Part shown: piece after piece, positions 5,833 to 63,694 of the stretch
How positions within the stretch are numbered: the first letter of the stretch is position 1
Layout: every line of letters begins with the position of its first letter
NCBI RefSeq assembly: GCF_005406125.1
Contig: NZ_BIXZ01000010.1
Span: 1 to 64,000, forward strand
DNA: 64,000 nucleotides
Reading direction: 5' to 3'
DNA from: Haloarcula mannanilytica
GTDB taxonomy: Archaea > Halobacteriota > Halobacteria > Halobacteriales > Haloarculaceae
Program-made: the position numbers and the translations under genes
Notes under the pieces: model-generated
Databases searched by the model: none
Told to the model about the DNA's origin: nothing
What the model saw: the letters and a program-made list of their open reading frames with translations, nothing else

Positions 5833-5876
5833 CTTAACCAACAGAACTCTACCCCTACCGACAAGTGTTGGTTAAG
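5833..5876 (+). repeat. Dispersed inverted repeat, copy 1 (before conjugation operon)
   Basis: Arms CTTAACCAACA (5833-5843) and TGTTGGTTAAG (5866-5876) are perfect 11-base complements with a 22-base spacer. This is one of eight copies in the window; only the ten core bases of each arm are conserved and the spacers are unrelated. Here the repeat sits just upstream of the TATA-like box and the first gene of the conjugation operon. Confidence 0.9.
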
Positions 5877-23157: not shown

Positions 23158-23199
23158 TTAACCAACATTCCGAACCGATACCGACACACTGTTGGTTAA
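23158..23199 (+). repeat. Dispersed inverted repeat, copy 2
   Basis: TTAACCAACA (23158-23167) and TGTTGGTTAA (23190-23199) are perfect ten-base arms with a 22-base spacer. The repeat is 100 bases upstream of the TATA box for the endonuclease-like gene at 23331. Confidence 0.9.
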
Positions 23200-32011: not shown

Positions 32012-32149
32012 AGAGCTATCTCAAATATCCTGGAACAATAAAATGGCACATATTTTGAGTAGTAGACTGCTTGCTATATACGGTGTCTCGTGTTGAGCGA
32101 GGTCTTCTGCGCCCGGAATAGGCACTTCAGTCCCGCGTAGAGTCTATTT

Positions 32150-32170
32150 ACCCCTGAATGGGTGAGGGGC
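32150..32170 (+). promoter_or_regulatory. Stem-loop leader element, copy 2 (before tfb)
   Basis: CCCC (32151-32154) and GGGG (32166-32169) enclose the 11-base loop TGAATGGGTGA. It lies 39 bases before the ATG at 32209 and argues against the upstream ATG at 32158, which falls inside the element. Confidence 0.6.
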
Positions 32171-32208
32171 GCGCCGAACTGGCGGGTTCCCGAAACACGG
32201 TGAGACCG

Positions 32209-33135
32209 ATGGCAACCAGAGACATCTACGAGAGCGGATTCGACGAGGACGTCCGAACGGAATCAAGTGCGAACCAATGCCCCGAGTGCGACGGCCGAGT
32301 CACCACGAACGCGGTCGAAACGGTCTGCGAGGACTGTGGCCTGGTCATCGACGAACAGCGCATCGATCACGGGCCGGAGTGGCGGGCGTACGACGACAAG
32401 GAGCGCGAGCGAACGGGTGCTCCACTCACTGCGGCCCGCCACGATCACGGCCTGTCGACGGAAATCGGTCGGGGTACCGACGCGAACGGGAACGAGATCT
32501 CCGGGCAGAAGCGACGGCGACTCGCTCGGATGCGCCGTGAGCAGACACGTGGTCGCTGGCGGTCGAAAGCGGAACGGAATCTCGCCCACGGGCTGGGCGA
32601 AGTGCGTCGGTTAGCGAGTGCCCTCGAACTCTCCGATTCGGTCCGCGACCAGGCGTGTCAGCTCTTCCGGAGCGCCCAGAACGAAGATCTGCTTCGAGGC
32701 AGATCCATCGAGGCCATCGCCGCGGCCAGCGTCTACGGAGCCTGCCGGTGCAACGGTCTCTCGCGGTTATTGGACGACGTCAGCGAGATGGCCCGCGTTG
32801 CGGAGTCACGGGTCACGAACGCGTACAAAACGCTGAACGAAGAGCTGGGCCTTCCCGCCGAGCCCGTCTCCCCCAGCATGTTCGTGCCGCGCCTCGCCTC
32901 GGACCTCGAGTGTCCGGACAGGATCCGACAGCGGGCCCGAACGCTCGCGGAGCAGGCCGAGGAGCGCGGCGTCACGACGGGCGTCCACCCGGCCGGATTC
33001 GCCGCGGCCTGCCTCTACAAGGCCGGTCACGAGGAGGGCCGATGGCTGACGCAATCCGAGGCCGCGGACGTGGCGAACGCCTCGAAGGCGACTGTCCGGG
33101 CACACCGGGATACGTTGGAGAAACAGGTCGCCTGA
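32209..33135 (+). CDS. tfb: Transcription initiation factor B (TFB)
   Basis: 308 residues. The N-terminal zinc ribbon has CPEC (Cys 24, 27) and CEDC (Cys 40, 43). The B-finger region reads EWRAYDDKERERTGAP. Two cyclin repeats follow, starting about 125 (RLASALELSDSVRDQACQLF) and about 225 (RLASDLECPDRIRQRARTL), the second ending in a helix-turn-helix (TQSEAADVANASKATVRAHRD). TFB recruits RNA polymerase to TATA-TBP complexes. Haloarchaea use several TFBs, and this copy may adjust promoter choice on the element. The start was set by the leader element and the GGTGAG site 5 bases before the ATG. Confidence 0.9.
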   Translation: MATRDIYESGFDEDVRTESSANQCPECDGRVTTNAVETVCEDCGLVIDEQRIDHGPEWRAYDDKERERTGAPLTAARHDHGLSTEIGRGTDANGNEISGQKRRRLARMRREQTRGRWRSKAERNLAHGLGEVRRLASALELSDSVRDQACQLFRSAQNEDLLRGRSIEAIAAASVYGACRCNGLSRLLDDVSEMARVAESRVTNAYKTLNEELGLPAEPVSPSMFVPRLASDLECPDRIRQRARTLAEQAEERGVTTGVHPAGFAAACLYKAGHEEGRWLTQSEAADVANASKATVRAHRDTLEKQVA

Positions 33136-33229
33136 GGCAGATCACTGTCTCTCCGTCTGTACTGTACATCGTTCTATCCACGCTACGATTTAAACACGAA
33201 GACGAGCCATGTTCTCTGTAGACTACTCC

Positions 33230-34111
33230 ATGAACGGTCGTTACTCCGACTTCGAGGAACTGCGGCCGACCGGCGAGGCGTCCCACGTACCGGATACGAG
33301 GCTGGACGACGTGTGTGAAGGTGACCCCCGACGGCAACGCGTCGCAACGAGCTCTGGTGGCTATCCCGATGCGCCGACGGTCACCGACGGCGAGTGCCGG
33401 TCCTGTGGGACGTCAGTCCCAGACGGCCAGACGAAATGCCGATTCTGCCTCACTAACCATCTCGGAAATGACGCGAATAGCACGGGCGAGACAGCGTCGA
33501 CGACGGTCCTCGGCATCGTCCACCTAGTCGTCGAATCGACCACGTTCTACGGCGCCGTCGCGAAGGGCGGCGCCGCGGCGAACCTCCTCTCTGCCAGCGA
33601 GGCGGAGCCGGCCGTCGACGACTACACACTCATCTACGACCTCGACGAGGCGCCGGCGCGCCAGCTGGCCGAGCAATGGCCCTCACTCCCTGAAGCGGTA
33701 CAGGTGTCGTCAGAGGAGGGAGAGCAGCTTCTCAGTGCCGCCCGTGACCAGACTGGGTGGCACGGGCAGGAAGCGTCGGAGGGTCAGGAGCAGGCCCCGA
33801 CGCGGCTCTACGACCAGCGAGGGAACGGCATCCGCGACGAATCGCGTCTCGCAACGATCCTCGACGACGCCGACGACGCGGTGTGGCTGGTTCCAGCGAT
33901 CGCGCTGACCGAATCTCCTGCCGAGGCTGTGGCTGATCGCCAGGTATCGTCGGTGCCGACGACGCAGAACCTCGACTGTCAAACCTGTGGTCGGACGACC
34001 GACCATCGGTTCAAGACCCACGAGTCGGTCCCAGATGAGGCGTGGTCGGGACAACCAATCTGGGAGTGCCAGGTGTGTGGCTCGGCTCGTTACGGCCCCA
34101 GTCTCGAGTAG
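33230..34111 (+). CDS. Hypothetical protein with two zinc ribbons
   Basis: 293 residues. An N-terminal CRSCGTSVPDGQTKCRFC ribbon and a C-terminal CQTCGRTT...CQVCGS ribbon flank a middle region without known motifs. A TATA-like TTTAAAC near 33190 would start transcription around 33215, so the ATG at 33230 (MNGRYSDFEELRP) is preferred to the one at 33209. It follows tfb in the same direction but has its own promoter. The paired ribbons suggest nucleic-acid or protein binding. Confidence 0.6.
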   Translation: MNGRYSDFEELRPTGEASHVPDTRLDDVCEGDPRRQRVATSSGGYPDAPTVTDGECRSCGTSVPDGQTKCRFCLTNHLGNDANSTGETASTTVLGIVHLVVESTTFYGAVAKGGAAANLLSASEAEPAVDDYTLIYDLDEAPARQLAEQWPSLPEAVQVSSEEGEQLLSAARDQTGWHGQEASEGQEQAPTRLYDQRGNGIRDESRLATILDDADDAVWLVPAIALTESPAEAVADRQVSSVPTTQNLDCQTCGRTTDHRFKTHESVPDEAWSGQPIWECQVCGSARYGPSLE

Positions 34112-34130: not shown

Positions 34131-34172
34131 TTAACCAACACCATGCGAGTAGCGTCGAGGTTCGTTGGTTAA
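34131..34172 (+). repeat. Dispersed inverted repeat, copy 3
   Basis: TTAACCAACA (34131-34140) and CGTTGGTTAA (34163-34172); one outer mismatch, 22-base spacer. It lies about 50 bases upstream of a stem-loop leader and the gene at 34250. Confidence 0.85.
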
Positions 34173-34438: not shown

Positions 34439-34485
34439 CTGGCGTCGCCGAACACGCCCAGGGAGGCAGATCTCGCGTCGGTTTA

Positions 34486-34512
34486 TCGCCCCCGATAGGG
34501 GTGCGGGGGCGA
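34486..34512 (+). promoter_or_regulatory. Stem-loop leader element, copy 4
   Basis: TCGCCCCC (34486-34493) pairs perfectly over 8 bp with GGGGGCGA (34505-34512) around the loop GATAGGGGTGC. This is the longest stem in the family. The ATG at 34530 is 17 bases after it. Confidence 0.75.
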
Positions 34513-34529
34513 CCCCGTGAAGTCCAGAC

Positions 34530-34910
34530 ATGGCGACACTGCAAGCTGCGACGACGTCGACTGGCGCGATCGTATCGGATCCGCAGGCAGTCCGCGAGCT
34601 CTGTGAGAGCTACTGCTTCGGGACGCTCGACTGGGAAGTGACCGAAGACGGAGAGCTCACCATCTGGGGGTACGACGACTTCGAGGTGTACGAGGCGCGG
34701 GAGAACGGCCTGCCGGACTACGAAGGCGGGATCGTGACCCACGAATTCCTGCGAGAACTCGCCGACCATCTCGAAGCTGACGAGGAACTCGATATCCAGA
34801 CAGCGGGGTTCACCAAGTGCCGCTTTCCCGTGCTGGCGAAGCGGTACGTCGTTCGCGACGACGAAGTTCTCCACGCGGACCTCAGTTCCCCCGACCCGAT
34901 CGACGAGTAG
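34530..34910 (+). CDS. Hypothetical acidic protein
   Basis: 126 residues, single domain by appearance, with strands (GTLDWEVTEDGELTIWGYDDFEVYE) and a helix (THEFLREL ADHLEADEEL). No family is recognised and no catalytic motif stands out. It stands alone between two stem-loop leaders, a pattern typical of the one-gene cassettes in this part of the window. Confidence 0.6.
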   Translation: MATLQAATTSTGAIVSDPQAVRELCESYCFGTLDWEVTEDGELTIWGYDDFEVYEARENGLPDYEGGIVTHEFLRELADHLEADEELDIQTAGFTKCRFPVLAKRYVVRDDEVLHADLSSPDPIDE

Positions 34911-34920
34911 AGTTGTTCGT

Positions 34921-34940
34921 CCCCCGGGAGGGGTGCGGGG
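34921..34940 (+). promoter_or_regulatory. Stem-loop leader element, copy 5
   Basis: CCCC (34921-34924) pairs with GGGG (34937-34940) around a loop containing GGGAGGGGTGC; the inner AGGGG offers an alternative pairing. A conventional GAGGTGATT ribosome-binding site follows, before the ATG at 34978. Confidence 0.6.
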
Positions 34941-34977
34941 CGATCCAGTCGCGGTCGCCCCGTGAGGTGATTGCTCG

Positions 34978-35640
34978 ATGGGACACCGCGCACTCGTTGC
35001 GTATGAACGCACAGACGGACAGTACACGCTCCACTACAGCCATTGGGGCGCAGCGAACCTGAAGCTCAAGCACCGAATCTCGGCTGAGTCGCCGTTCGGT
35101 GGCGACGACACCGACTCCACGTGGGCGAAACAGCTCCTCGCAGAGCTTGCCGATGGGCTCGAGGCAGATGCCGTCGACGGCTACCTCGCCGGCGAGAATC
35201 GTCCGTCGTCGGTCGTCGAGCCGAAGCCCCGCGCTACCGGGCTCACCCTCGACGAGATCGTCGCTGACCATCTCGACTACCTCCACCACGAGGCGTTCTT
35301 CGTGGTGTCGACGACGTTCGAGGTGACCGCCTATCGGACGCTGTGGTTCGGCCTCCAGTACGACTCGGAGACGGTCGAACAAGGAGAAACAGTCGGGAAC
35401 GGCGCGCTTGCGACGGTGCGCTGGTACGACGGCGAGCCGGTCGGCGATGGCCACCTGCAGGGACAGTTCGCGGCACTCAAAGACGTCGTCGGCGATATGC
35501 TCGACAAGGGCGTCTTCACGCCGTCGACCGCGAGACAGTACCTGAAACGGAAGCTAGCCGAGCGAGTCGGAGACCGACAGGAGCTGCTCATTCCGACCGG
35601 AGAATCACCCTTCGAGAAGGCGATCCTCAACCACTCCTAG
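34978..35640 (+). CDS. Hypothetical protein
   Basis: 220 residues. The start MGHRALVAYERTDGQYTLHYSHWG and the later VVSTTFEVTAYRTLWFGLQYDSE are predicted beta-rich; the C-terminus is helical and more basic (YLKRKLAERVGDRQEL). The start has a strong GAGGTGATT site 6 bases upstream. Family not recognised. The AT-richer HEPN insertion begins just downstream. Confidence 0.6.
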   Translation: MGHRALVAYERTDGQYTLHYSHWGAANLKLKHRISAESPFGGDDTDSTWAKQLLAELADGLEADAVDGYLAGENRPSSVVEPKPRATGLTLDEIVADHLDYLHHEAFFVVSTTFEVTAYRTLWFGLQYDSETVEQGETVGNGALATVRWYDGEPVGDGHLQGQFAALKDVVGDMLDKGVFTPSTARQYLKRKLAERVGDRQELLIPTGESPFEKAILNHS

Positions 35641-35651
35641 TTCGATCTGCT

Positions 35652-35711
35652 TCGTGGCAGCTGCAGTTTTTCAAAAGTCGGAATGGGTGAGCCCCGCCAA
35701 AGGCTCGTGAT
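35652..35711 (+). repeat. Left direct repeat flanking the HEPN gene (decayed leader copy)
   Basis: These 60 bases align without gaps with 37717-37776, about 47 of 60 identical, including GTTTTTCA, GAGCCCCGCCA and AGGCTCGTGAT. This left copy has lost the outer stem that the right copy keeps and has no gene directly after it. Confidence 0.7.
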
Positions 35712-35875: not shown

Positions 35876-37495
35876 TCACTGGAGAGTGTTCCTAAGTGCC
35901 CCAAACTCGAGAGGCATAGCAGGCAACTCGCGGCTGGGCTTCCGTTCCTCTTCGAGATTGACGGCGAAGGCAAGGTAGATGAGTGCTGCTCGGGTTTTCC
36001 GCAGCATCGTGACTGCTTTCGTCTCGAATTCGTCTCGTGACATCTTCGTCGCTAATTCATCCGTAAAATGGCCCGCTGGTCGCTCCGTTGTCTCCCACCC
36101 CGTGAGTTTCACATACCGGTGCTCGACACCATTCCGCAGTTCAGTAAGCTCTCGGCCCGCCAAATCCAGCGAGTTCTCTATCCGTAGCGAATCATCTCGC
36201 AGGTCCTTACTCAACCAGTACAGTCCTCGAAGCGGTAGGTTCGCCCGGCCTGAAAATTTCTCTTGCAGAGTACTCCCGTGCCGGTTCTGGAACCAGATGT
36301 CGGTAAATGAGACGTCCTCCGTATCGCGGCCGCATTCGAAATAGTAGTTGATGAACTGCGCGATCTTATCGAACAGAGAGTACGCTGTCCGGAGCGCAAT
36401 CTTCAGCTGCTCACCATACACGGAGTGAACGGGGTAATCCAGCGTATTCGTCAGAGAGACCTCCTTATCTGCGAAGTGCGGGCCGTCAGGGTGACTCCCC
36501 TGGTACAGCAAATACCGGGCAGTCACGTACTCCTCGACCAAGTGATTCCATAATCCAAGACAGGTCACAATTCGTTCCGTCCGAGCGTCCAGTAGCTGGC
36601 CAAGATGGAGTGTATCTTGAGCAGCAATCGGCTCGTCCGTTACATCGTTCAGCGTGTTCAGAAAGAGACGATGCCGGAGACCCCACCGTCGATACGCTCG
36701 CTCCTCGTCGCTGTCCCCGAGGTCACTCTCCTCGAAGTCAAGAATCTCATCAGATGGGGGTGAAGACTTGAACTCGGCTGTGATTCGGGTTTGATACCGG
36801 TCGAACTGCTGGAGCGTTTTCTCGGGCGAGAGGCCTACGAGGCGGTCCATCTTTGCCTTCTCTATTTCATCGTACGCTTTCTTCAGCAGAACCGCACGAT
36901 GCCCCTCGTCGTAGTCATGCCTCCCGTACGTGTAGAAGCCGATGCCGCGTTGACCCCGGGCAGGGAAGAAGTACGGTTGGCGGATTAACGCCTCATTCCA
37001 GAAGTCGAACGCCTCGACGAACCGCCCGATGGTCGAATACAGATTCCCTAGGTTCGTGAACGACCGCCATTGTTCTAGTGGCGAGAGTTCGTCTACGGTA
37101 TCTTCCTGAATTGCGAGGCGATAGTGCCGGATAGCGTGTTCCCGGTCGGTGTTCTCCCAGAGCCATTCGTCGCCCCGGTCGGCCTCCAAGGACATCCGGT
37201 TCGAATATGCTGTGCCGAGCCGGTAGTTCAACATTCCGCGGAGCTCGGCATCAAGCGAGGACGGGTCCAGGTCTTTGGCGAGGTCAATCCCTGCGGAGAT
37301 CGCGATTCGACTGTCGATGTCGGCGCCGTGGTCAACGAGCCAGCCGATAACCCTAAGTTGATTGCGAGAAGAGAGATTCTCGACTGACTCGACCATTTTC
37401 AGGCGGTCGATGACCTCCTCCCGATATTCGGGAAGCAGATCCTGGAGTGACCGGACCTCTAAAGCTGTCAGACGAGACGTTTGCTCTGCTTCCAC
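35876..37495 (-). CDS. LA2681-type HEPN protein with N-terminal TPR-like repeats
   Basis: 539 residues. The first half is helical and TPR-like (EQWRSFTNLGNLYSTIGRFVEAFDFWNEALI). The C-terminal half has signatures I associate with LA2681-family HEPN proteins: ARYLLYQGS, FADKEVSLTNTLDYP, KIALRTAYSLFDKIAQFINYYF and LRGLYWLSKDL. It then has ELRNGVEHRYVKL, where Arg 454 to His 459 is the HEPN RNxxxH motif. HEPN proteins are commonly ribonucleases in defence. The gene is on the opposite strand to its neighbours, is AT-richer, and sits between directly repeated leader sequences, so it looks like inserted cargo. Confidence 0.75.
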   Translation of the reverse strand: MEAEQTSRLTALEVRSLQDLLPEYREEVIDRLKMVESVENLSSRNQLRVIGWLVDHGADIDSRIAISAGIDLAKDLDPSSLDAELRGMLNYRLGTAYSNRMSLEADRGDEWLWENTDREHAIRHYRLAIQEDTVDELSPLEQWRSFTNLGNLYSTIGRFVEAFDFWNEALIRQPYFFPARGQRGIGFYTYGRHDYDEGHRAVLLKKAYDEIEKAKMDRLVGLSPEKTLQQFDRYQTRITAEFKSSPPSDEILDFEESDLGDSDEERAYRRWGLRHRLFLNTLNDVTDEPIAAQDTLHLGQLLDARTERIVTCLGLWNHLVEEYVTARYLLYQGSHPDGPHFADKEVSLTNTLDYPVHSVYGEQLKIALRTAYSLFDKIAQFINYYFECGRDTEDVSFTDIWFQNRHGSTLQEKFSGRANLPLRGLYWLSKDLRDDSLRIENSLDLAGRELTELRNGVEHRYVKLTGWETTERPAGHFTDELATKMSRDEFETKAVTMLRKTRAALIYLAFAVNLEEERKPSRELPAMPLEFGALRNTLQ

Positions 37496-37716
37496 GGTTA
37501 ACGGTCGAGAGCAGGGTGGCGGTTTATTCGATACATGTGCTCCGGGTTCGCTGTCTCGAGGGGGATGTCCATTTCAGTCAATACAATTTCATAATACTGT
37601 CGTGCGATTTTGTATTAGTACTGCTGCAATTCACATCGTAGAGGATGTGAAGTCTGATAGAGTTACGTAGCTACCTACTAAAGACCAGATTAATATTACT
37701 TCCTTATCAATTTGTC
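37496..37716. other. AT-rich flank of the inserted HEPN gene
   Basis: No gene seen. It must hold the HEPN promoter on the minus strand. It contains AT-rich patches (TTAATATTACTTCC near 37690) unlike the surrounding cassettes. Confidence 0.4.
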
Positions 37717-37776
37717 TCGTAGCAACTGCTGTTTTTCAGGGGCAGGAAGGACCGAGCCCCGCCATAGGCTCGTGAT
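37717..37776 (+). repeat. Right direct repeat flanking the HEPN gene (contains stem-loop leader copy 6)
   Basis: This is the intact partner of 35652-35711. After GTTTTTCA, the arms GGGGC (37739-37743) and GCCCC (37756-37760) enclose a 12-base loop AGGAAGGACCGA. The arms are reversed in composition relative to other copies (G-rich first), a strong covariation. The ATG at 37780 follows. Confidence 0.7.
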
Positions 37777-38202: not shown

Positions 38203-38232
38203 GAATCCGCCGTCACGAGGAGAGTTTTTCGA

Positions 38233-38255
38233 GCGCCGGCGATGGGTGCCGGCGC
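38233..38255 (+). promoter_or_regulatory. Stem-loop leader element, copy 7
   Basis: After GTTTTTC, GCGCCGG (38233-38239) pairs perfectly with CCGGCGC (38249-38255) around the 9-base loop CGATGGGTG, the shortest loop of the family. It comes 51 bases before the ATG at 38307. Confidence 0.8.
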
Positions 38256-38306
38256 AGCTGGAGCGAGCAACGATTCCCGGTGCGTCGGCGTTTCGAGGTG
38301 TTCGAG

Positions 38307-41678: not shown

Positions 41679-41749
41679 CCTCAATTATATGGACAGTACG
41701 TTGCAACTGCCAAATACGTTGCCGAACGCTGCGCCGTCCTGTTTGTTGA

Positions 41750-41772
41750 ACCCCTGAGAGGGGTGCGGGGGT
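41750..41772 (+). promoter_or_regulatory. Stem-loop leader element, copy 9
   Basis: ACCCC (41750-41754) can pair with GGGGT (41768-41772), or internally as CCCCT-GAG-AGGGG. The loop core is GAGAGGGGTGC. It comes 23 bases before the ATG at 41796. Confidence 0.65.
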
Positions 41773-41795
41773 CACCGAACCGCCCGCGAGCAACG

Positions 41796-42482: not shown

Positions 42483-42613
42483 TGGAGACGCTTCGACTGG
42501 CGCGAGCCACCCACCAGCTCCTCGAACGTGGTGTCGAGGCGCTCGAGAAACTCGGGCGCGAACTGGAGCGATACAACGACCGACAGGAGCGCACCGACGA
42601 CACCGACTCGTGA
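42482..42613 (+). CDS. Small helical protein coupled between DUF6166 and GNAT-like genes
   Basis: 43 residues: METLRLARATHQLLERGVEALEK, continuing as an amphipathic helix with an acidic tail. Its ATG overlaps the DUF6166 stop (TGATG), and its TGA overlaps the next GTG start (GTGA). Strict coupling on both sides and consistent codon use support a real gene despite the size. It may be a helical adaptor. Confidence 0.55.
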   Translation: METLRLARATHQLLERGVEALEKLGRELERYNDRQERTDDTDS

Positions 42614-43272
42614 CCGAAACTCACTCTCTAGACCAAATACGGAGTACCGGCTTCCAGTATACGCCTACCCCCGAGGGGTGCTCGTGTCCCATCCATCGCG
42701 ACGGCCAGCCAGTCACGGCGCCGCTCGGTTTGCGGTTCGCAGAGCGGGTCCATATCGAATCGATCCCGCGCCATGTCGCCGGCGCGATCTACGAAGCACA
42801 CCATTCCTATATGGACGATGTCCCCCGGACGAATCTCGTCCATCACGGACTCTGTTACCAGAACCAGCTACTAGGTGCGATTACGTGGCGCTATCCGCTG
42901 ATTCGCTCGCTGGAGTACGAGGGGGCGCGATTCGAGGGCGACGAAATCGTCGAGGCAGCACGGATTTGCATCGGTGTCGATTTCCCCAATCTCGCCTCTG
43001 CCGCCCTCGCCCAGTCGATGGAACGGTTCGTGCGTCGGCACGGCCAGCGACGAGGCGTTCGGCTCCTGCTGACGTTCGTGCGAGCCGACTTCGACGGCTC
43101 GATGATCAAAGCGCTCAGAGACAAGGGCTGGCACTGTGCCGGTAAAACAGAGCCGGGTCAGGCTGGCAACCGACCAGACAAGCAGATCCGAGAGCAGCCG
43201 AAGTGGCGGTTTCTCTGCGAAGTCTCATCTGAATCAGACCGGGAACAGGCGCCACTCAATCGGTGGTCATGA
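42610..43272 (+). CDS. GNAT-fold protein resembling Mom-type DNA modification enzymes
   Basis: 220 residues. The order of motifs (AGAIYEAHHSYM, then GLCYQNQLLGAITWR, EAARICIGVDFPNLASAALAQSME, LLLTFVRADFDGSMIKALRDKGWHCAG) follows the GNAT-like Mom family of phage Mu-type viruses, which modify adenine in DNA. Family membership is inferred from pattern and is uncertain; an ordinary acetyltransferase is the alternative. It is the last gene of a three-gene overlapping operon. DNA modification would suit a transferable element carrying nucleases. Confidence 0.5.
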   Translation: MTETHSLDQIRSTGFQYTPTPEGCSCPIHRDGQPVTAPLGLRFAERVHIESIPRHVAGAIYEAHHSYMDDVPRTNLVHHGLCYQNQLLGAITWRYPLIRSLEYEGARFEGDEIVEAARICIGVDFPNLASAALAQSMERFVRRHGQRRGVRLLLTFVRADFDGSMIKALRDKGWHCAGKTEPGQAGNRPDKQIREQPKWRFLCEVSSESDREQAPLNRWS

Positions 43273-47366: not shown

Positions 47367-47406
47367 TTAACCAACAGAGCGGTGGTTTCATCGATATGTT
47401 GGTTAA
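47367..47406 (+). repeat. Dispersed inverted repeat, copy 4
   Basis: TTAACCAACA (47367-47376) and TGTTGGTTAA (47397-47406), perfect arms, 20-base spacer (the shortest). It stands 15 bases before the stem-loop leader at 47422 and can be read with it as one module. Confidence 0.9.
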
Positions 47407-47421
47407 CGTGGTGTTGTTTTT

Positions 47422-47447
47422 GCGCCCGGGAGAGGGGCGCAGGGCGC
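47422..47447 (+). promoter_or_regulatory. Stem-loop leader element, copy 10 (two alternative pairings)
   Basis: After GTTTTT, GCGCCC (47422-47427) can pair perfectly with GGGCGC at 47435-47440 or at 47442-47447. The outer form has a 14-base loop with GAGAGGGGCG. A GAGGTGACTGCG site precedes the ATG at 47499. Confidence 0.75.
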
Positions 47448-47498
47448 GAGACGAGGCAGGCGGCCGTCGATGAGCGTTCCTGCGTCGAGGTGACTGCG

Positions 47499-47700: not shown

Positions 47701-48528
47701 TTGACCGACCATATTTGTGACTACTGTGGCGAGTCGTTTGCAACCTCCAACGAATTGGGCGGCCACGTAACCGCTGCCCATCGTCGCGACCAGATCGTAA
47801 CGGACGCAGACCTAATTCTCGACGATATTCGGCGTGTTGCAGACGAATTAGGAAAGCCGCCGACAGCGAAGGAGATGAGCGAGCATGGTGAATACTCCCA
47901 GCGCGTCTGCCAGAACAAATTCGGGAGTTGGAATGAGGCGCTTCATGAGGCTGGCTACGTTCCAAATCGGAAATTCCGACTCACTGATCAGGATCTACTG
48001 GATGAAATCGACCGCCTTGCAGAGAAGTTCGGTCGCCCACCATCGAGCGGTGAAATTAATCAAGTGGGAAAGTATCACAAGTGTACGTATCTCGAACGAT
48101 TCGGCGGGTGGGAAGAGGCACTCAACGAAGCAGGCTATCTGCAACCGAGATCGTATCAAGACTCCACGGAGATCCCCTACGGACCGAATTGGCTTGAGCA
48201 GCGGCAACGAGCCTTAGAACGGGATGACTTCGAGTGTCAAACGCCCTGGTGCGATGTAACCCAAATAGAGCATCAAGATCAGGTCGGGAAGGAACTCTAC
48301 GTTCATCACATTATTCCGCGGAACTTTTTCTACGGGTCGGACGACCAGTTCGACTACCAGCAGGCCAATGCCCTCTCAAATCTGGTGACTGTCTGTGCGA
48401 AACACCATCTAGTGTGGGAGGCTGTCGCTCCACAGCGATTAGATGTGCTAGCCTACGAGAGACAACCTAGGGCGAGCGCCCCCGCGGATCGCGTTTCTCT
48501 ACCCCCAGAGGGAGGTGAGGGGGACTGA
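47701..48528 (+). CDS. HNH homing-type endonuclease with zinc finger and two HNH-associated repeats
   Basis: 275 residues. An N-terminal C2H2-like finger (CDYCGESFATSNELGGHVTAAH) is followed by two copies of the roughly 55-residue homing-endonuclease-associated repeat (IRRVADELGKPPTAKEMSEHG... FGSWNEALHEAGY and IDRLAEKFGRPPSSGEINQVG... FGGWEEALNEAGY). An HNH nuclease core comes last (YVHHIIPRNFFYG... NLVTVCAKHH). The TTG start follows a GGAGGTGA site overlapping the upstream stop. Such enzymes cut specific sites and spread themselves. The 3' end also forms stem-loop leader copy 11. Confidence 0.8.
   Translation: MTDHICDYCGESFATSNELGGHVTAAHRRDQIVTDADLILDDIRRVADELGKPPTAKEMSEHGEYSQRVCQNKFGSWNEALHEAGYVPNRKFRLTDQDLLDEIDRLAEKFGRPPSSGEINQVGKYHKCTYLERFGGWEEALNEAGYLQPRSYQDSTEIPYGPNWLEQRQRALERDDFECQTPWCDVTQIEHQDQVGKELYVHHIIPRNFFYGSDDQFDYQQANALSNLVTVCAKHHLVWEAVAPQRLDVLAYERQPRASAPADRVSLPPEGGEGD
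48502..48523 (+). promoter_or_regulatory. Stem-loop leader element, copy 11 (inside the upstream CDS end)
   Basis: CCCCC (48502-48506) pairs with GGGGG (48519-48523) around AGAGGGAGGTGA. It overlaps the last codons of the HNH gene (LPPEGGEGD) and comes 22 bases before the ATG at 48546. Confidence 0.6.
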
Positions 48529-48545
48529 CTCCCCTCGTGGTCGCT

Positions 48546-48794: not shown

Positions 48795-48813
48795 CCGCTG
48801 TAGCGTCGTTTTT

Positions 48814-48837
48814 TGCGCCATAATGGGTGGAGGCGCA
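48814..48837 (+). promoter_or_regulatory. Stem-loop leader element, copy 12
   Basis: After GTTTTT, TGCGCC (48814-48819) pairs with GGCGCA (48832-48837) around ATAATGGGTGGA. A GGAGGATG site and the ATG at 48870 follow. Confidence 0.8.
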
Positions 48838-48869
48838 GATCAGAACGCATCGCGCCTTCGGAGGATGTT

Positions 48870-50027: not shown

Positions 50028-50066
50028 AGCCGCGACGATGAGCTAGTCGTCTGGTCTGTTTTCTCT

Positions 50067-50084
50067 CCCTCAAGAGGTGGAGGG
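50067..50084 (+). promoter_or_regulatory. Stem-loop leader element, copy 13 (compact)
   Basis: After GTTTTC, CCCT (50067-50070) pairs with AGGG (50081-50084) around CAAGAGGTGG. The loop's GAGGTG is about 15 bases before the ATG at 50093, so here the loop may itself be the ribosome-binding site. Confidence 0.6.
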
Positions 50085-50092
50085 CGATCAAG

Positions 50093-50314
50093 ATGGAGAA
50101 CTCCACGGACAGCGATGGGAGTGACGACAACTTCCCACCCGAGAAGCGCCTTGAAGCACCGAATTATCGACTAATCGAGGCCGGAATCGCGACGATCCCC
50201 GACATGGAGACACTCCGAGAGTGCGTTGCGTACGAGAACGCACACCAGAACCGGACCCAGATTTTGCGTCGCCTCCAGTGGAAAGCCGAAGAGTTGCGTG
50301 AGAGTGAGGAGTAG
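50093..50314 (+). CDS. Small hypothetical protein
   Basis: 73 residues. Acidic start, then helical (YRLIEAGIATIPDMETLRECVAYENAHQNRTQILRRLQWKAEELR). No recognised domain. It has one compact leader upstream and is followed 9 bases later by inverted-repeat copy 5. Confidence 0.55.
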   Translation: MENSTDSDGSDDNFPPEKRLEAPNYRLIEAGIATIPDMETLRECVAYENAHQNRTQILRRLQWKAEELRESEE

Positions 50315-50323
50315 CGACCTGTC

Positions 50324-50365
50324 TTAACCAACTGTCGGAGCAAGGCACCATCCTGTGTTGGTTAA
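50324..50365 (+). repeat. Dispersed inverted repeat, copy 5
   Basis: TTAACCAACT (50324-50333) and TGTTGGTTAA (50356-50365); one mismatch at the inner edge, 22-base spacer. It is followed 24 bases later by stem-loop leader copy 14. Confidence 0.85.
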
Positions 50366-50389
50366 CGTCGAGTAGATCCCGTTTTTCGG

Positions 50390-50410
50390 GCCCCGGAAGG
50401 GGCGCGGGGC
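50390..50410 (+). promoter_or_regulatory. Stem-loop leader element, copy 14 (two alternative pairings)
   Basis: After GTTTTTCGG, GCCCC (50390-50394) can pair with GGGGC at 50399-50403 or at 50406-50410. The ATG of the HNH gene is 103 bases away, by far the longest gap of the family, so the leader's original gene may have been displaced. Confidence 0.7.
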
Positions 50411-50513
50411 GGCCAGCAGCGGCCTCGCGAGGTCAGTCGTTACAGAGACACGAGCACTGACATTCAAATACCAAGCCGGGACCAAACTGAGTGACTCAAT
50501 CACCTCACAAATC

Positions 50514-53492: not shown

Positions 53493-53524
53493 GACACCGG
53501 TGTACCGACTGTGAGTTGTTTTTC

Positions 53525-53546
53525 GCCCCCCTGAGAGGGTGAGGGC
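53525..53546 (+). promoter_or_regulatory. Stem-loop leader element, copy 15
   Basis: After GTTTTTC, GCCC (53525-53528) pairs with GGGC (53543-53546) around CCCTGAGAGGGTGA; CCCT-GAG-AGGG is an alternative inner hairpin. A separate AGGTGATT site precedes the GTG at 53580. Confidence 0.65.
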
Positions 53547-53579
53547 TTCAGCCGAAGTCCTCGCAATCAGGTGATTCCC

Positions 53580-53927: not shown

Positions 53928-53948
53928 CCGACAGCGCGGTTTTTTGAA

Positions 53949-53968
53949 CGCCCCTGAGGGGTGCGGCG
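53949..53968 (+). promoter_or_regulatory. Stem-loop leader element, copy 16
   Basis: After GTTTTTTGAA, CGCC (53949-53952) pairs with GGCG (53965-53968) around CCTGAGGGGTGC; CCCC-TGA-GGGG is an alternative. It comes 46 bases before the ATG at 54015, and the upstream frame from 53961 that overlaps it is rejected. Confidence 0.65.
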
Positions 53969-54014
53969 CGGTCTGAACAGACGCAGTCGCCGTGAACTTG
54001 ATTCGGTGAACACA

Positions 54015-54962
54015 ATGGCTACGACTAGTAACTCGTCGGTCTCCTTCGAGGAGACCGACACGCGAGACGACGAGATGAACAGTACGATCGAACAGTGGAT
54101 CGATGAACTTGTCGCCGGCGTCGACGACGCGCAGGCTAGCGAGGAGTTCCAGGAGTGGCTCGACGTCCAGAGTCGCTTCCACGACTACTCCTACCGGAAC
54201 ACGCTCCTCATCAAGCAGCAGTGCCCCGAGGCGAGCCGGGTGGCGGGCTACCGGACGTGGCAAGAGGAGTTCGACCGGCACGTCAAGGAGGGCGAGTCGG
54301 CCATCTGGATCTGGGCGCCGATCATCACCAAACAGTGCCCGGAATGCGAGAACTCGCCGAGCTACCATGAGGACAGTGACTGTGAGTACGACGAGACGCC
54401 GCCCGAGGAGTGGTCCGAGGGCCTGGTCGGGTTCAAGCCCGCACCGGTGTTCGATGTCTCCCAGACCGAGGGCGAGCCACTTCCCGACTTAGACACGGAA
54501 GCGACCGGCGACGCCGGCGACCTCGTCGAACGGTTGACTGCCGCCGCTGATGAGCTCGGCGTGACGGTGCGAATTGTTCCAGCCGAGGAGTGGACGCACG
54601 GCGAGGCGAAGGGCATCTGCGAGCAGCTGAGTCTCGTCGATATGCAGCCGCGTGTCGAGGTGCGTGATCGGGAGAACGACGCTGATCTCGCCCGGACGCT
54701 GGTTCACGAGTACGCGCACGCCCTGCTCCACTTCGACGTCGACGACGATACGGAGCGGTCGAAACGCGAAGTCGAGGCCGAAGCCGTCGCGTACGTCGTC
54801 GGGCGGTACTGCGGGCTCGACACCAGTGGGTCAGCGTTCTACCTCGCAGCCTGGGAGTCGGACAATCCCGAGGTCGTTCGCGAGCGGCTCGGACGGATTA
54901 GTTCAACAGCAGAAGAGCTCATCGACGTGCTCGAAGGCGAATCCTCGTCCCAACCCAGTTAA
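54015..54962 (+). CDS. ArdC-like antirestriction protein
   Basis: 315 residues. An N-terminal ArdC-type ssDNA-binding domain is followed by a zinc metallopeptidase domain. The N-terminal part reads SEEFQEWLDVQSRFHDYSYRN, then NTLLIKQQCPEASRVAGYRTW and SAIWIWAPI. It carries a Cys/His insert (CPECENSPSYHEDSDC). The peptidase motif LVHEYAHALLHF is near residue 230, followed by KREVEAEAVAYVV with the third ligand. This ArdC layout protects incoming single-stranded plasmid DNA from host restriction. It suits a conjugative element with a TrwC-independent transfer system. Confidence 0.8.
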   Translation: MATTSNSSVSFEETDTRDDEMNSTIEQWIDELVAGVDDAQASEEFQEWLDVQSRFHDYSYRNTLLIKQQCPEASRVAGYRTWQEEFDRHVKEGESAIWIWAPIITKQCPECENSPSYHEDSDCEYDETPPEEWSEGLVGFKPAPVFDVSQTEGEPLPDLDTEATGDAGDLVERLTAAADELGVTVRIVPAEEWTHGEAKGICEQLSLVDMQPRVEVRDRENDADLARTLVHEYAHALLHFDVDDDTERSKREVEAEAVAYVVGRYCGLDTSGSAFYLAAWESDNPEVVRERLGRISSTAEELIDVLEGESSSQPS

Positions 54963-55000
54963 CCAACAGGGTGATGGATTCCTTCCGCTCTGTTGGTTAA
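54959..55000 (+). repeat. Dispersed inverted repeat, copy 6
   Basis: TTAACCAACA (54959-54968) and TGTTGGTTAA (54991-55000), perfect, 22-base spacer. Its first bases include the ArdC stop codon. Stem-loop leader copy 17 begins 8 bases after it. Confidence 0.9.
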
Positions 55001-55008
55001 GTTTTTTC

Positions 55009-55034
55009 TGCGCCCGCCGAGGGGCGGAGGCGCA
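55009..55034 (+). promoter_or_regulatory. Stem-loop leader element, copy 17 (two alternative pairings)
   Basis: After GTTTTTTC, TGCGCC (55009-55014) pairs with GGCGCA (55029-55034) around CGCCGAGGGGCGGA. An inner CGCCC/GGGCG pairing (55011-55015 with 55022-55026) excludes it. It comes 16 bases before the ATG at 55051. Confidence 0.75.
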
Positions 55035-55050
55035 TTCAGATCTCCGTCGA

Positions 55051-55869
55051 ATGATGACTGAACCAAATCTCACGACGGTCCTTGAGGAAGCCGAGCACGT
55101 TGCCGAGCAGCACGACCAGGTCGCTCGAACGACAGACAACCAAGCTCACGAGTACCTCCGATACGCCGTCCTCCGGGTGCTTGAAGGCGAGGCGAATCAC
55201 CTCCCAGCAGACTGGACGCCGATCGACGGCGTGACCGTCGGTTACGGCAGCGACGACGCGATGTTCGACAGTTGGAGCGCCAGCGAAGACTGGTGGGAGA
55301 CCGTCCCGCCGCAGGAGGCGTGTACCCGCTTCCGGGTGTTCTTCCCGGACGACCACCAGACGGTCCCCCGGGTCATCGTCGACGTGATGGCCACGCTCGG
55401 TGCCTGGCGCGTCTGGACCGGGAGCGCAGCCGCGTGCGGCTCCTACGACCATCGCGAGCGCCGCGAAGTCCACTACCTGTGGCCGGAAGGCCATCCGGTC
55501 GAGGAAGTGCTCCACGAGCGGCTCAGGGGGCCTGCGGAAGCCCTCGCTCCCGACGGTGGCCGAACGGGCGATGTTCGCGACCGACTGGTCGTCGACGAGA
55601 ACGCACAGTTGGAGGACGATCTTGAGCCCCGCACGAAGCGTGCCGTCGCCGAAGCGATGGACGTCTCACTCCTCTCGAAGGGTGGCCGCTACGAGGTACA
55701 GTCTGCGTCCGGGAACCGGTACGAAGTCGACGTCATCGACGAATCGTGTACCTGTCCTGACTGGCAGCAACGTTCACCCGAAGGCGGCTGCAAGCACCTG
55801 CGCCGCGTCGATCACGAGATCAAACGGGGCCGCGTTCCCCGACCAGACGGCCGCCTTCCCTCCCCGTAG
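55051..55869 (+). CDS. SWIM zinc-finger protein
   Basis: 272 residues. The C-terminus carries a SWIM finger: YEVDVIDESCTCPDWQQ then GGCKHLRRVDHEI (C-x-C-xn-C-x-H). The N-terminal 190 residues are acidic and unassigned. SWIM fingers bind DNA or proteins and occur in recombination factors and plasmid proteins. A longer frame from 54652 runs through ardC and is rejected; leader and inverted repeat support ATG 55051 (or the next codon but one, 55054). Confidence 0.7.
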   Translation: MMTEPNLTTVLEEAEHVAEQHDQVARTTDNQAHEYLRYAVLRVLEGEANHLPADWTPIDGVTVGYGSDDAMFDSWSASEDWWETVPPQEACTRFRVFFPDDHQTVPRVIVDVMATLGAWRVWTGSAAACGSYDHRERREVHYLWPEGHPVEEVLHERLRGPAEALAPDGGRTGDVRDRLVVDENAQLEDDLEPRTKRAVAEAMDVSLLSKGGRYEVQSASGNRYEVDVIDESCTCPDWQQRSPEGGCKHLRRVDHEIKRGRVPRPDGRLPSP

Positions 55870-57691: not shown

Positions 57692-57732
57692 TTAACCAAC
57701 AAAACTATGGGAAGAGAGACCGTGTTGGTTAA
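57692..57732 (+). repeat. Dispersed inverted repeat, copy 7
   Basis: TTAACCAACA (57692-57701) and TGTTGGTTAA (57723-57732), perfect, 21-base spacer. Only 14 bases separate it from the ATG at 57747, too few for a promoter to lie between, so here the repeat is probably transcribed. Confidence 0.9.
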
Positions 57733-58127: not shown

Positions 58128-58288
58128 ACACCCCCCAGAGTGTGAATGGGATTGATTTACCCGACACCCCTCGGTGTGAATGGGCTACCAACCGTCGCTC
58201 TCTGAGGAGGTTTCTCGTCGAAAGAACCCATAGAAACACATGGATAGATTACGCCTCGTTTACCCCCACACCCCTCAGTGTGAATGGT
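58128..58288 (+). repeat. Origin-recognition-box-like repeats, left cluster (three copies)
   Basis: Copies at 58128-58150, 58164-58184 and 58268-58288 share ACACCCC(C)-TC/AG-GGTGTGAATGG; the second is exactly ACACCCCTCGGTGTGAATGG. All three point the same way, towards the Orc1/Cdc6 gene's 3' end. The motif itself contains the short dyad ACACC...GGTGT. Confidence 0.85.
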
Positions 58289-58608
58289 CCACCACCCAAG
58301 GTACCGCGATTAAGAAGCCCTTAACACCAGAAGTCCTCACGCCGTAGGGCGGGTTCTCGCCTCAGTGGCGAAGCTTCGGCTTCGGTACAAGGCCTCGCCT
58401 TTCAAAATACGTCTACTCGGAGGGCTGTTTCAACTGCAGTATAATAAAGATAACTACAACTGCGGTGCGGTGCAGTAGCGGAGCGGGTCAGCTACCGTGG
58501 CAGAACGTGTAAGCCGCTCTCCGTCCATGATAGGTCCTCAGACGGACGACACAGCTTCTACGGGTCGAGTCCGGCTCCGTCTTTACAACAGTCGTGACCT
58601 ATGGGGGA

Positions 58609-58633
58609 CCATTCACACCGAGGGGTGGGGGTG
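58609..58633 (-). repeat. Origin-recognition-box-like repeat, inverted copy
   Basis: CCATTCACACCGAGGGGTGG is the reverse complement of the left-cluster motif. It ends at the Orc1/Cdc6 stop codon and faces the three direct copies across the AT-rich patch. Confidence 0.8.
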
Positions 58634-59902
58634 TCACCATCCCATCAACGTCTGGAGTTCCGGCGTCGAGTTGATCAGTCCAGTTCGTGTACTCTCGACG
58701 TCTCCTTGGAGCGAATACGACCTGAACTTCCCCTGATCTCCACCTTCCTTCTTTTTCGATTCGAGAACTCCTGTCGTCACGTGTTTGTTCAGAAGCTCAA
58801 GCGCACGATTATACCCCTTGGGCTCTACTTCGACATCCCGTGCTACTGTTTGGTATACCTCGTGAATCTCTGACGTCCGGAACCATTCTTTCTCCGGGTT
58901 ATTCCGGTCAAGACGTGTGAGAGCGAACAGGAGTAATTTCCCGGACAACGGAGTCCCTTTCACCATCTCCATAAAGAGTTCAACTTCGACGAGTTCGTCA
59001 GCCTCGAGAACGTGATCCGCGGTCACGATATCGTCGCCTTCTTCGTCGGCGATCTCGCCCGCATTCCGGAACAATCGGACTGCGCGTCGAGCGTCTCCGT
59101 GTTCTTCAGCTGCGAGTTCAGCTGTAGTTGGAATCACCTCGTCATCAAGGACACCGTCGTAAAATGCGTCCCGTCGATTTTCGAGGATTGCGATGAGCTG
59201 GTCTTCTTCGTACGGTGTGAACGTTCGGTGTTCTGGCTGGAGAGTCGATTGAACCCGTGATTCGATTTCTCCTTTGAATTCGATGTCGTTCGAAATCCCG
59301 ATTGTTACGACTGGGAAGTCAACGTCGTCTTTTGATTGTGTCCGGGATAGCGTGTAGAGGACTTCGTTGACTTCTCCGTGCTTGTCGATTTCATCGATGA
59401 TGACGACAAGACCGCCAGAGAACTCCCTCTGAACAACGGGCCACAATTTCCGATCCCGATAATGTTCAGCTGAGAGACCTTGATAAGGGACATCGAGCGG
59501 GTTCTCTGCTTTCGCGTTCACCTGCTCTGCGATCTTTCGGAAAGTGGAGGTATACGTAGAGATGGGGTCCGGGTTAATGTAGGCAGTAACGATCGGGGAG
59601 TCCGTTCCTTCGGTTGCTGCTTCGAGCCGCTCACAGACGTGTCTTGCAACTAGTGTCTTCCCCGTCCCGGTTTCGCCCCACTCCAAGACGTTATCCGGGA
59701 CGCTATTTGTCCGCATCTTTCGGAGATTCTTGGCCAGGAACGTGATATGGTCGTCTCGTCCGACAATTCGATTGGCGTCAGGAACGTTATCGATCTCGAG
59801 CAACCACGGTTTCTCAAAAATATCCGATTCGTCTTCCTCATCCCCTTCATCGACGTTTAAAATCTCGTCGACGGTTGTTTGCGTGGAATCGTCGTTTGGC
59901 AT
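58634..59902 (-). CDS. cdc6: Orc1/Cdc6 replication initiator
   Basis: 422 residues. The AAA+ core has Walker A GETGTGKT (residues 76-83) and Walker B LVVIIDEID (Asp 170, Glu 171). Sensor-like SNDIEFKGEI and the arginine-finger region DARRAVRLFRNAGEIA follow, and a winged helix ends the protein. It binds origin repeats and loads the helicase. The Met at 59902 is chosen because a TATA box on the minus strand (CCTATATG near 59931) predicts a transcript starting there; an ATG at 59923 lies too close to it. It is flanked on both sides by the origin-box repeats. Confidence 0.9.
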   Translation of the reverse strand: MPNDDSTQTTVDEILNVDEGDEEDESDIFEKPWLLEIDNVPDANRIVGRDDHITFLAKNLRKMRTNSVPDNVLEWGETGTGKTLVARHVCERLEAATEGTDSPIVTAYINPDPISTYTSTFRKIAEQVNAKAENPLDVPYQGLSAEHYRDRKLWPVVQREFSGGLVVIIDEIDKHGEVNEVLYTLSRTQSKDDVDFPVVTIGISNDIEFKGEIESRVQSTLQPEHRTFTPYEEDQLIAILENRRDAFYDGVLDDEVIPTTAELAAEEHGDARRAVRLFRNAGEIADEEGDDIVTADHVLEADELVEVELFMEMVKGTPLSGKLLLFALTRLDRNNPEKEWFRTSEIHEVYQTVARDVEVEPKGYNRALELLNKHVTTGVLESKKKEGGDQGKFRSYSLQGDVESTRTGLINSTPELQTLMGW

Positions 59903-59927: not shown

Positions 59928-60021
59928 ATATAGGTTGTCCACCCTCGGTGTGATTGATTAACCTCCATTCACACTCCGGGGGGTGTTCCATTGAGCAAGG
60001 CCCCCCCAGAGTGTGAATGGG
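59928..60021 (+). repeat. Origin-recognition-box-like repeats, right cluster
   Basis: Copies occur at 59939-59955 (direct, CCACCCTCGGTGTGA), 59964-59986 (inverted, CCATTCACACTCCGGGGGGT) and 60000-60021 (direct, CCCCAGAGTGTGAATGGG). A partial inverted copy (CCATTCACATATAGG) at 59928 overlaps the TATA box of the initiator gene, which suggests that Orc1/Cdc6 represses its own promoter. Confidence 0.8.
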
Positions 60022-63653: not shown

Positions 63654-63694
63654 TTAACCAACAACCGCCCGATTGACGCCGGCGTGTTGGTTAA
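63654..63694 (+). repeat. Dispersed inverted repeat, copy 8
   Basis: TTAACCAACA (63654-63663) and TGTTGGTTAA (63685-63694), perfect, 21-base spacer. It lies between the divergent RecA-like gene and the partial plus-strand gene at 63770. Confidence 0.9.

Follow-up and report, generated by a model that had tools for sequence, protein, structure and literature searches.

A haloarchaeal RNA leader family with mutually exclusive pairings, a candidate bistable switch of plasmid-type elements

Bacterial attenuators and translational riboswitches are leaders with alternative pairing. Archaea have very few known natural RNA switches, and the fluoride riboswitch of Thermococcus kodakarensis was called, as of 2021, the only experimentally determined natural archaeal riboswitch in PMC8241225 (as excerpted), where start-codon masking by a synthetic riboswitch is also described as functional in Haloferax volcanii. 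This organism is reported to make no use of Shine-Dalgarno pairing in its 5′ UTRs (PMC3986360, abstract). Two further systems are close to the leaders described here. Frpo promoters drive leading-region genes in bacteria (PMC11541004, as excerpted), and intergenic termination in H. volcanii uses a T stretch and ends at a C, with 95% effectiveness in one tested case (PMC7237163, as excerpted). In the literature searched, which leaves most subscription journals outside its scope, a string search gave no occurrence of the present leader sequence, titles and abstracts held no description of such leaders, and DUF6735 was not mentioned.

The window, i.e., the whole stretch of 64,000 nucleotides that was analyzed, is contig C10 of a 4.2-Mb genome in 33 contigs. 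Its gene neighborhood is haloarchaeal in kind, harboring genes for a TrbL/VirB6-like protein, TFB, Cdc6, an ArdC-like protein, DUF6735, and DUF6166. From 5′ to 3′, the leader consists of a U-rich tract, a C-rich segment (C1), a purine-rich loop, two G-rich segments (G1, GGGGYG, and G2), a loop, a second C-rich segment (C2), and the start codon (Table 1).

Table 1. Segments of the 47422 leader, leader copies, and palindromes in the window. R1 and R2 are the covariance models described in the text; shuffles are those of the chance test.
Feature	Position	Strand	Basis or remark
U-rich tract TTTTT, 5′ side of leader	47417..47421	+	sequence
Segment 1 (C1), GCGCCC	47422..47427	+	sequence/pairing
Segment 2 (G1), GGGCGC, first partner of C1	47435..47440	+	sequence/pairing
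Segment 3 (G2), second partner of C1	47442..47449	+	UUGCGCCC/GGGCGCGA, 47420-47427 with 47442-47449
Segment 4 (C2), UCCUGC, pairs with GCAGGG 47439-47444	47478..47483	+	start codon ATG 47499
Leader copy 5′ of TFB (TFIIB) gene, start 32209	32139..32196	+
Leader copy 5′ of 126-aa gene, start 34530; C1-G2 UCGCCCCCG/CGGGGGCGA	34477..34521	+	7/2000 shuffles
Leader copy 5′ of DUF6735 gene, start 34978	34909..34966	+
Leader copy; C1-G2 GCGCCGG/CCGGCGC, 38233-38239/38249-38255	38222..38284	+	R1 E 0.013, R2 E 0.00047
Leader copy 5′ of DUF6166 gene, start 41796	41739..41790	+
Leader copy, start 48546	48490..48539	+	R2 E 0.0003
Leader copy	48805..48861	+	weak in R1 (E 0.16); modeled folds
Leader-like copy directly 5′ of 73-aa gene, start 50093	50063..50093	+
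Leader copy 5′ of HNH-repeat gene, start 50514 (unusually distant)	50378..50431	+
Leader copy 5′ of 115-118-aa gene	53515..53566	+
Leader copy 5′ of ArdC-like gene, start 54015; weakest C1-G2 alternative	53937..53996	+
Leader copy 5′ of 271-aa gene, start 55054	55001..55051	+
Palindromes	5834-5875, 23158-23199, 34131-34172, 47367-47406, 50324-50365, 54959-55000, 57692-57732, 63654-63694

Similar to attenuators, four complementary segments are found in a short leader directly before a gene, and pairing of segments 1 and 3 excludes both 1:2 and 3:4. In contrast to attenuators and riboswitches, no ligand domain or aptamer, leader peptide, or hairpin-plus-U terminator is recognized in the haloarchaeal leader, its U-rich tract lies 5′ of the hairpins, and the same leader is found on many unrelated genes of one element. 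It shares with the T. kodakarensis fluoride riboswitch the nature of a structured archaeal mRNA leader but matches no Rfam family and is carried by plasmid-type haloarchaeal genes. A search of the whole window against Rfam 15 yielded no match at the gathering score; two sub-threshold matches belong to unrelated families, and nothing relevant is found at E ≤ 5 in 32000–57000. The likeness to Frpo/ssi (PMC11541004, as excerpted) lies in repeated hairpins before the one-strand genes of a conjugative element, anti-defense genes included; however, the haloarchaeal helix is one of sense RNA, located about 10 nt 5′ of the start codon and without promoter elements. Haloarchaeal T-stretch terminators (PMC7237163, as excerpted) similarly have a T run that is often followed by C, whereas in the leaders conserved hairpins follow within 20 nt and then the start codon, and the run is of at most 3 in 27 of 72 copies.

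The original prediction named seven leader hairpins with two competing pairings each. These sites are almost certainly copies of one cis-acting RNA leader family. A loose pattern scan of the window gives nine clear + strand copies between 32 and 55 kb, each 5′ of an open frame, and copies beyond those named earlier lie at 32151, 34489, 38233, 48502, 48812, and 50063. The pairings predicted at 47422 and 50390 are exact to the base: the C1 of the former faces GGGCGC both as G1 and at 47442–47447, and in the latter GCCCC (50390–50394) is accompanied by GGGGC at 50399–50403 and 50406–50410. Two competing stems are also present at 55009, UGCGCC (55009–55014) with GGCGCA (55029–55034) and CGCCC (55011–55015) with GGGCG (55022–55026). 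The alternatives at 53525 are partly one bulged stem and not rivals, and the inner CCCC/GGGG alternative claimed for 53949 is CGCC/GGCG only.

Chance was assessed by randomizing the base order of each leader's second-tract window in 2000 shuffles and counting those that pair C1 as well as the real sequence does. The counts are 9 for 41750, 26 for 47422 (C1-G2 pairing of −17.9 kcal/mol), 120 for 55009, 145 for 34921, 477 for 53525, 717 for 50390, and 1629 for 53949. On these counts, the claim that a second G-tract is unlikely by chance holds clearly at 41750 and 47422 and marginally at 34921 and 55009, and it fails at the remaining three of the seven sites taken singly. For the family as a whole, the second pairing is above chance in the composition-controlled permutation described below.

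One helix is missing in some copies (50063, 38222, and 53937). A G2-C2 helix was looked for in the 50063 copy and not found, and that of the 38222 copy is of 3 bp only. The 48805 copy has C1-G2 as UUUGCGCC/GGCGCAGA (48812), then G2-C2 as GGAGGCGC/GCGCCUUC, with scant C1-G1 pairing. Two related leader-like repeats, 35642–35711 and 37707–37776, are 76% alike and both end in GAGCCCCGCCAWAGGCTCGTGAT; C1-G2 is lost in the first, while in the modeled fold of the second (variant 37729) the C1 and G2 letters are exchanged such that GGGGC pairs with GCCCC.

A covariance model built from the nine window copies (R1) gives 24 matches at E ≤ 0.07 in its own genome, mainly clustered on contigs C10, C9, C1, C12, and C13, and matches in 35 of 60 genomes of relatives at E ≤ 0.01. 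The refined model R2, built on 150 matches (116 distinct), extends at E ≤ 0.001 to 241 of 391 genomes of the haloarchaeal class and to 67 of 86 genera. Of 196 genomes sampled across the phylum, 33 are matched, 27 of which are within the order; each of the six outside it has only one match, a weak one (E 1.5e-4 to 0.001) near background. Three G+C-rich actinobacterial genomes give 0, 1, and 2 weak model matches at E ≤ 0.01. An exact 20-base pattern is found, among the matches listed, in Halorubrum, Haloarcula, Haloferax, Natrinema, Halosimplex, and other named haloarchaea; its presence in Streptomyces and others, again among the matches listed, is probably due to chance. A virus origin of the leaders was considered and rejected, an exact pattern match being found in one viral contig. 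DNA similar to 34850–35640 is present in 77 plasmid records. An open frame follows 382 of 419 distinct leaders from longer loci, and these frames form 36 blastp groups (17 single), a few of which look like false matches in coding regions.

The position of the leaders can be read from three annotated plasmids, those of Natrinema sp. J7-2 (pJ7-1), Halorubrum hochsteinianum, and Halobacterium hubeiense, all of which are MPF_T per PLSDB. Across the whole plasmids, 36 of 36 matches are on one strand, with 10 to 14 per plasmid, and restriction, helicase, and other cargo genes are often on the opposite strand. The three plasmid stretches contain 30 matches at E ≤ 0.05, of which 23 end at most 30 nt from the start of an annotated CDS, two overlap a start, one is 76 nt off, and four have no annotated CDS after them. 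A long open frame on the same strand ends at most 200 nt upstream in 93 of 155 non-redundant leaders; many leaders are therefore intercistronic.

The element's own TFB (32158–33132) is located behind a leader copy, and at that place the Halobacterium hubeiense plasmid encodes a TFB and a TATA-box-binding protein (L266 16–942 and 1401–1961). A conserved plasmid gene beside TFB (33209–34108) strongly matches the NCBIfam entry “biosurfactant protein 1” (MBSP1, E 9e-140), a name that may not reflect the role of the gene on the plasmid. Proteins of the defense/anti-restriction type in the leader-bearing region are HEPN_LA2681 (35876–37492, − strand) and the ArdC-like protein (54015–54959, + strand); 42610–43269 (+ strand), with a weak Mom-family match below the Pfam cut-off, is of the same type. 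The window also contains eight perfect palindromes of the form TTAACCAAC(N22-24)GTTGGTTAA, whose arms begin 31–33 bp from one another, or about three helical turns. Their own genome has 18 such sites (eight on C10, eight on C9, and one each on C12 and C15) and none of the reversed control pattern, and three of them are directly 5′ of leader copies. They may serve these elements as an operator or a partition site. The cdc6 gene is flanked by repeats (58128–58294, 58602–58634, and 59965–60020) that have CACCCCTCAGTGTGAATGG-like cores, occur in both orientations, and are probably origin-recognition repeats.

Covariation was examined in 72 leaders of less than 80% identity. They derive from 106 clusters, reduced to 80 by a start-codon and T-tract filter and to 78 by removal of two register duplicates, six of the 78 being dropped by eye as non-members for a poor T tract or coding matches. 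The start codons of the 72 were assigned by the analyst, and the annotated plasmids lend them independent support. The statistics rest on a scan that selected for a T-rich tract, a C- or CG-rich block, and GGYG, so that these features are built into the set; the T frequency of 82–86% at positions −20 to −18, counted from the Y in GGYG, is to be read with the T-rich stretch that the scan demanded there. The G2-C2 helix is present in 67 of the 72 leaders and ends at a median of 10 nt (10th–90th percentile 8–19) 5′ of the start codon. No uniform motif 3′ of C2 was found in this set.

In the permutation test, the best uninterrupted helix between two segments is compared between native leaders and leaders with segments permuted across the set, and the reversed-strand score is subtracted as a composition control. 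At three levels (72 leaders, 37 at 65% identity, and 19 at 58%), G2-C2 affords z values of −6.9, −3.8, and −1.9 (the last with 149 of 5000 permutations) and C1-G2 affords −5.2, −3.3, and −2.9 (0, 3, and 15 of 5000), values that are not exact probabilities since the leader types are related by descent. The best supported partner of the second G-tract is thus the downstream C2, which was absent from the original prediction, although G2 can also pair with C1, as predicted. The second G-tract is kept in homologous leaders, so that the refutation named in the original prediction, its loss there, does not occur, and it coevolves with C1 across leader types. Permuted inside gene families, G2-C2 is still strong (z −4.4 to −6.4), whereas C1-G2 declines from −2.4 to −2.9 when raw to −0.5, −1.2, and −1.5 when composition-controlled. 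The support for C1-G2 therefore rests on differences between leader types, which perhaps number about ten; examples are ACGUCCCG/CGGGACGU in L042, UCGUCCCG/CGGGACGA in L065, and UUGCGCCUG/CAGGCGCGG in L109.

Raw permutation without composition control gave C1-G2 z values of −6.3 and −7.7, but the reversed-C1 control itself reached −3.8, and hence these values are not relied on; raw permutation on all 78 leaders has the same direction. Counts of double base changes within families are likewise uninformative, because the control pairings (26 double changes vs 109 lost pairs for the reversed strand and 35 vs 77 for an unrelated loop) are not separated from C1-G2 (52 vs 167). For C1-G1, with z values of 0.4, 1.0, and 0.3 at the three levels, complementarity is invariant and does not covary. 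A separate test compared the Y of GGYG with the base that directly precedes the C run and supports C1-G1 at that one position: where Y is C, the opposite base is G in 19 of 20 leaders, and where Y is T, it is G in 28, A in 14, and T in 8 (Fisher p 0.0016, G vs not-G).

With mismatches allowed in the helices, G-U vs A-C/C-A pairs number 22/1 in G2-C2, 6/1 in C1-G1, and 1/0 in C1-G2. The G2-C2 count indicates that the sense strand folds, as RNA. The pair types of C1-G2 are silent on RNA vs DNA; the helix is almost free of G-U pairs, although an RNA helix might be expected to have some. By sequence comparison, the leaders form one family, directly 5′ of start codons on the strand of the gene, with a sense-RNA G2-C2 helix and a C1 that can pair with G1 or G2, pairing with G2 excluding G2-C2. 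The real contest is between C1-G2 and C1-G1 plus G2-C2. Since C1-G2 and G2-C2 are mutually exclusive, the idea of a bistable leader is supported in part; the covariation of C1-G2 within gene families is weak.

Folding was modeled with energies for standard salt, not molar KCl. Truncation of the leaders 3′ of G2 leaves C1-G2 as the dominant pairing in 42 of 72 and C1-G1 in 30. Among full leaders, the dominant helix is G2-C2 in 55 (accompanied by C1-G1 in 40) and C1-G2 in 10, with other folds in 7; the 48805 copy is anchored two bases off in this tally, so that its folds stand but its zone counts are rough. The chimera, two-state, and accessibility counts cover 69 leaders, since three whose start codon is distant were excluded. 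Before C2 is made, C1-G2 is dominant in 41 of 69 native leaders, compared with a mean of 29.4 in chimeras (sd 2.8, maximum 34; 40 permutations). In full leaders, G2-C2 is favored by a median of 2.9 kcal/mol and C1-G2 is favored in 11 of 69, and the two states are within 3 kcal/mol in 34. Modeled accessibility of the start codon is equal in both states (0.51 and 0.53), which counts against simple start-codon occlusion. The GGGYG core has a mean unpaired probability of 0.40 with C1-G2 vs 0.16 with G2-C2 and is higher with C1-G2 in 59 of 69 leaders, in line with the predicted difference in exposure of a GGGTG core.

On balance, both of the exclusive folds are probably used. As the RNA emerges, C1 would pair first with G1 or G2, and on emergence of C2, G2 would shift to it, affording two hairpins in tandem, C1-G1 and then G2-C2, about 10 nt 5′ of the start codon. 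A putative trans-acting factor, of plasmid or host origin and common to all copies, would stabilize one of the states and thereby determine jointly how much each core gene of the element is expressed, probably by reading the GGGYG core exposed under C1-G2. That the factor is shared is suggested by the many copies on one element; a regulated switch with such a common factor is proposed tentatively. The candidate controlled steps are ribosome loading, 5′-end stability, and processing or termination at the U-rich tract, with 5′-end protection or processing at the tract being preferred and ribosome loading placed after them. Taken as a whole, this account of the leader as a regulated RNA of the downstream gene is the best explanation at hand and is plausible, albeit short of probable.

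There is a considerable possibility that the leader is instead static. Constitutive tandem hairpins, C1-G1 and G2-C2, would then serve as a nuclease barrier (5′ or intercistronic) or as a spacer, and C1-G2 would be a by-product of two G-rich arms. The rank of G2-C2 as the strongest helix, the C1-G1 plus G2-C2 fold modeled in 40 of 72 full leaders, the weakness of C1-G2 within families, and the intercistronic position of many leaders (93 of 155) all fit such an element. It accounts less well for a C1-G2 pairing that exceeds both composition-controlled permutation between types (z −5.2, −3.3, and −2.9) and chimeras, and for the 48805 copy and the 37729 variant, which have a strong C1-G2 and almost no C1-G1.

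A slightly less likely possibility is that the upstream transcript ends at the U-rich tract, which would be a haloarchaeal T-stretch terminator recognized by aCPSF1, and that the hairpins directly 3′ of the tract shield the new 5′ end or control the choice of termination or read-through. In a methanogen, U-tracts are bound by aCPSF1 (PMC8716108, as excerpted), and the tract is T-stretch-like; processing at the tract with hairpins guarding the 5′ end is therefore a serious alternative. The longest T run is of at least 5 in 38 of 72 leaders and at least 4 in 45, and C follows it in 33, but it is of 3 in 24 leaders and of 2 in three. Moreover, the tract is also found where no upstream gene is seen ending nearby (62 of 155), and RNA 3′ of a terminator cannot act until the polymerase has passed.

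A DNA element, either an Frpo-like single-stranded-DNA promoter or a T-rich tract acting as TATA box, with a palindromic operator between the tract and the start site, is improbable. The checked plasmids are MPF_T, their leaders are on one strand with an ArdC-like gene among those preceded, and C1-G2 is nearly without G-U; in addition, 60 of 72 tracts contain TTWT, which has been proposed as the TATA motif of haloarchaea (PMC4983044). A CGAAA-like, A-rich BRE motif is found upstream in only 1 of 72, so that a haloarchaeal promoter of TATA plus BRE was rejected, as was an Frpo-type promoter, given the same BRE count and, as judged from sequence, the absence of an A+T peak at any constant distance upstream. 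The acceptance of G-U but not A-C in G2-C2 (22 vs 1), which fits sense RNA, and the tight spacing to the start codon also stand against DNA. Chance, whereby G+C-rich leaders yield functionless G-tract pairs, is very improbable and may apply to single copies such as 53937, three of the seven named sites being unremarkable singly; it is refuted for the family by the family-wide permutation and chimera tests, the 67 of 86 genera, the association with strand and start codon, and the 0 to 2 weak matches in each of the three actinobacterial genomes.

For the preferred reading, a regulated leader with two folds, the wider consequence would be a plasmid-wide archaeal RNA regulon, in which one bistable leader stands before a dozen or so core genes of haloarchaeal conjugative-type elements and answers to one shared factor. 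Such a regulon is a speculative proposal; its core genes would include those for TFB, the ArdC-like protein, DUF6735, and DUF6166, switched together at the RNA level. The leader family is compact, is found in most sampled haloarchaeal genomes, has clear segments to mutate, and has relatives in culturable genera. The leaders mark the core genes of these elements apart from defense and metabolic cargo and allow the coordination of genes on archaeal mobile elements to be tested directly.
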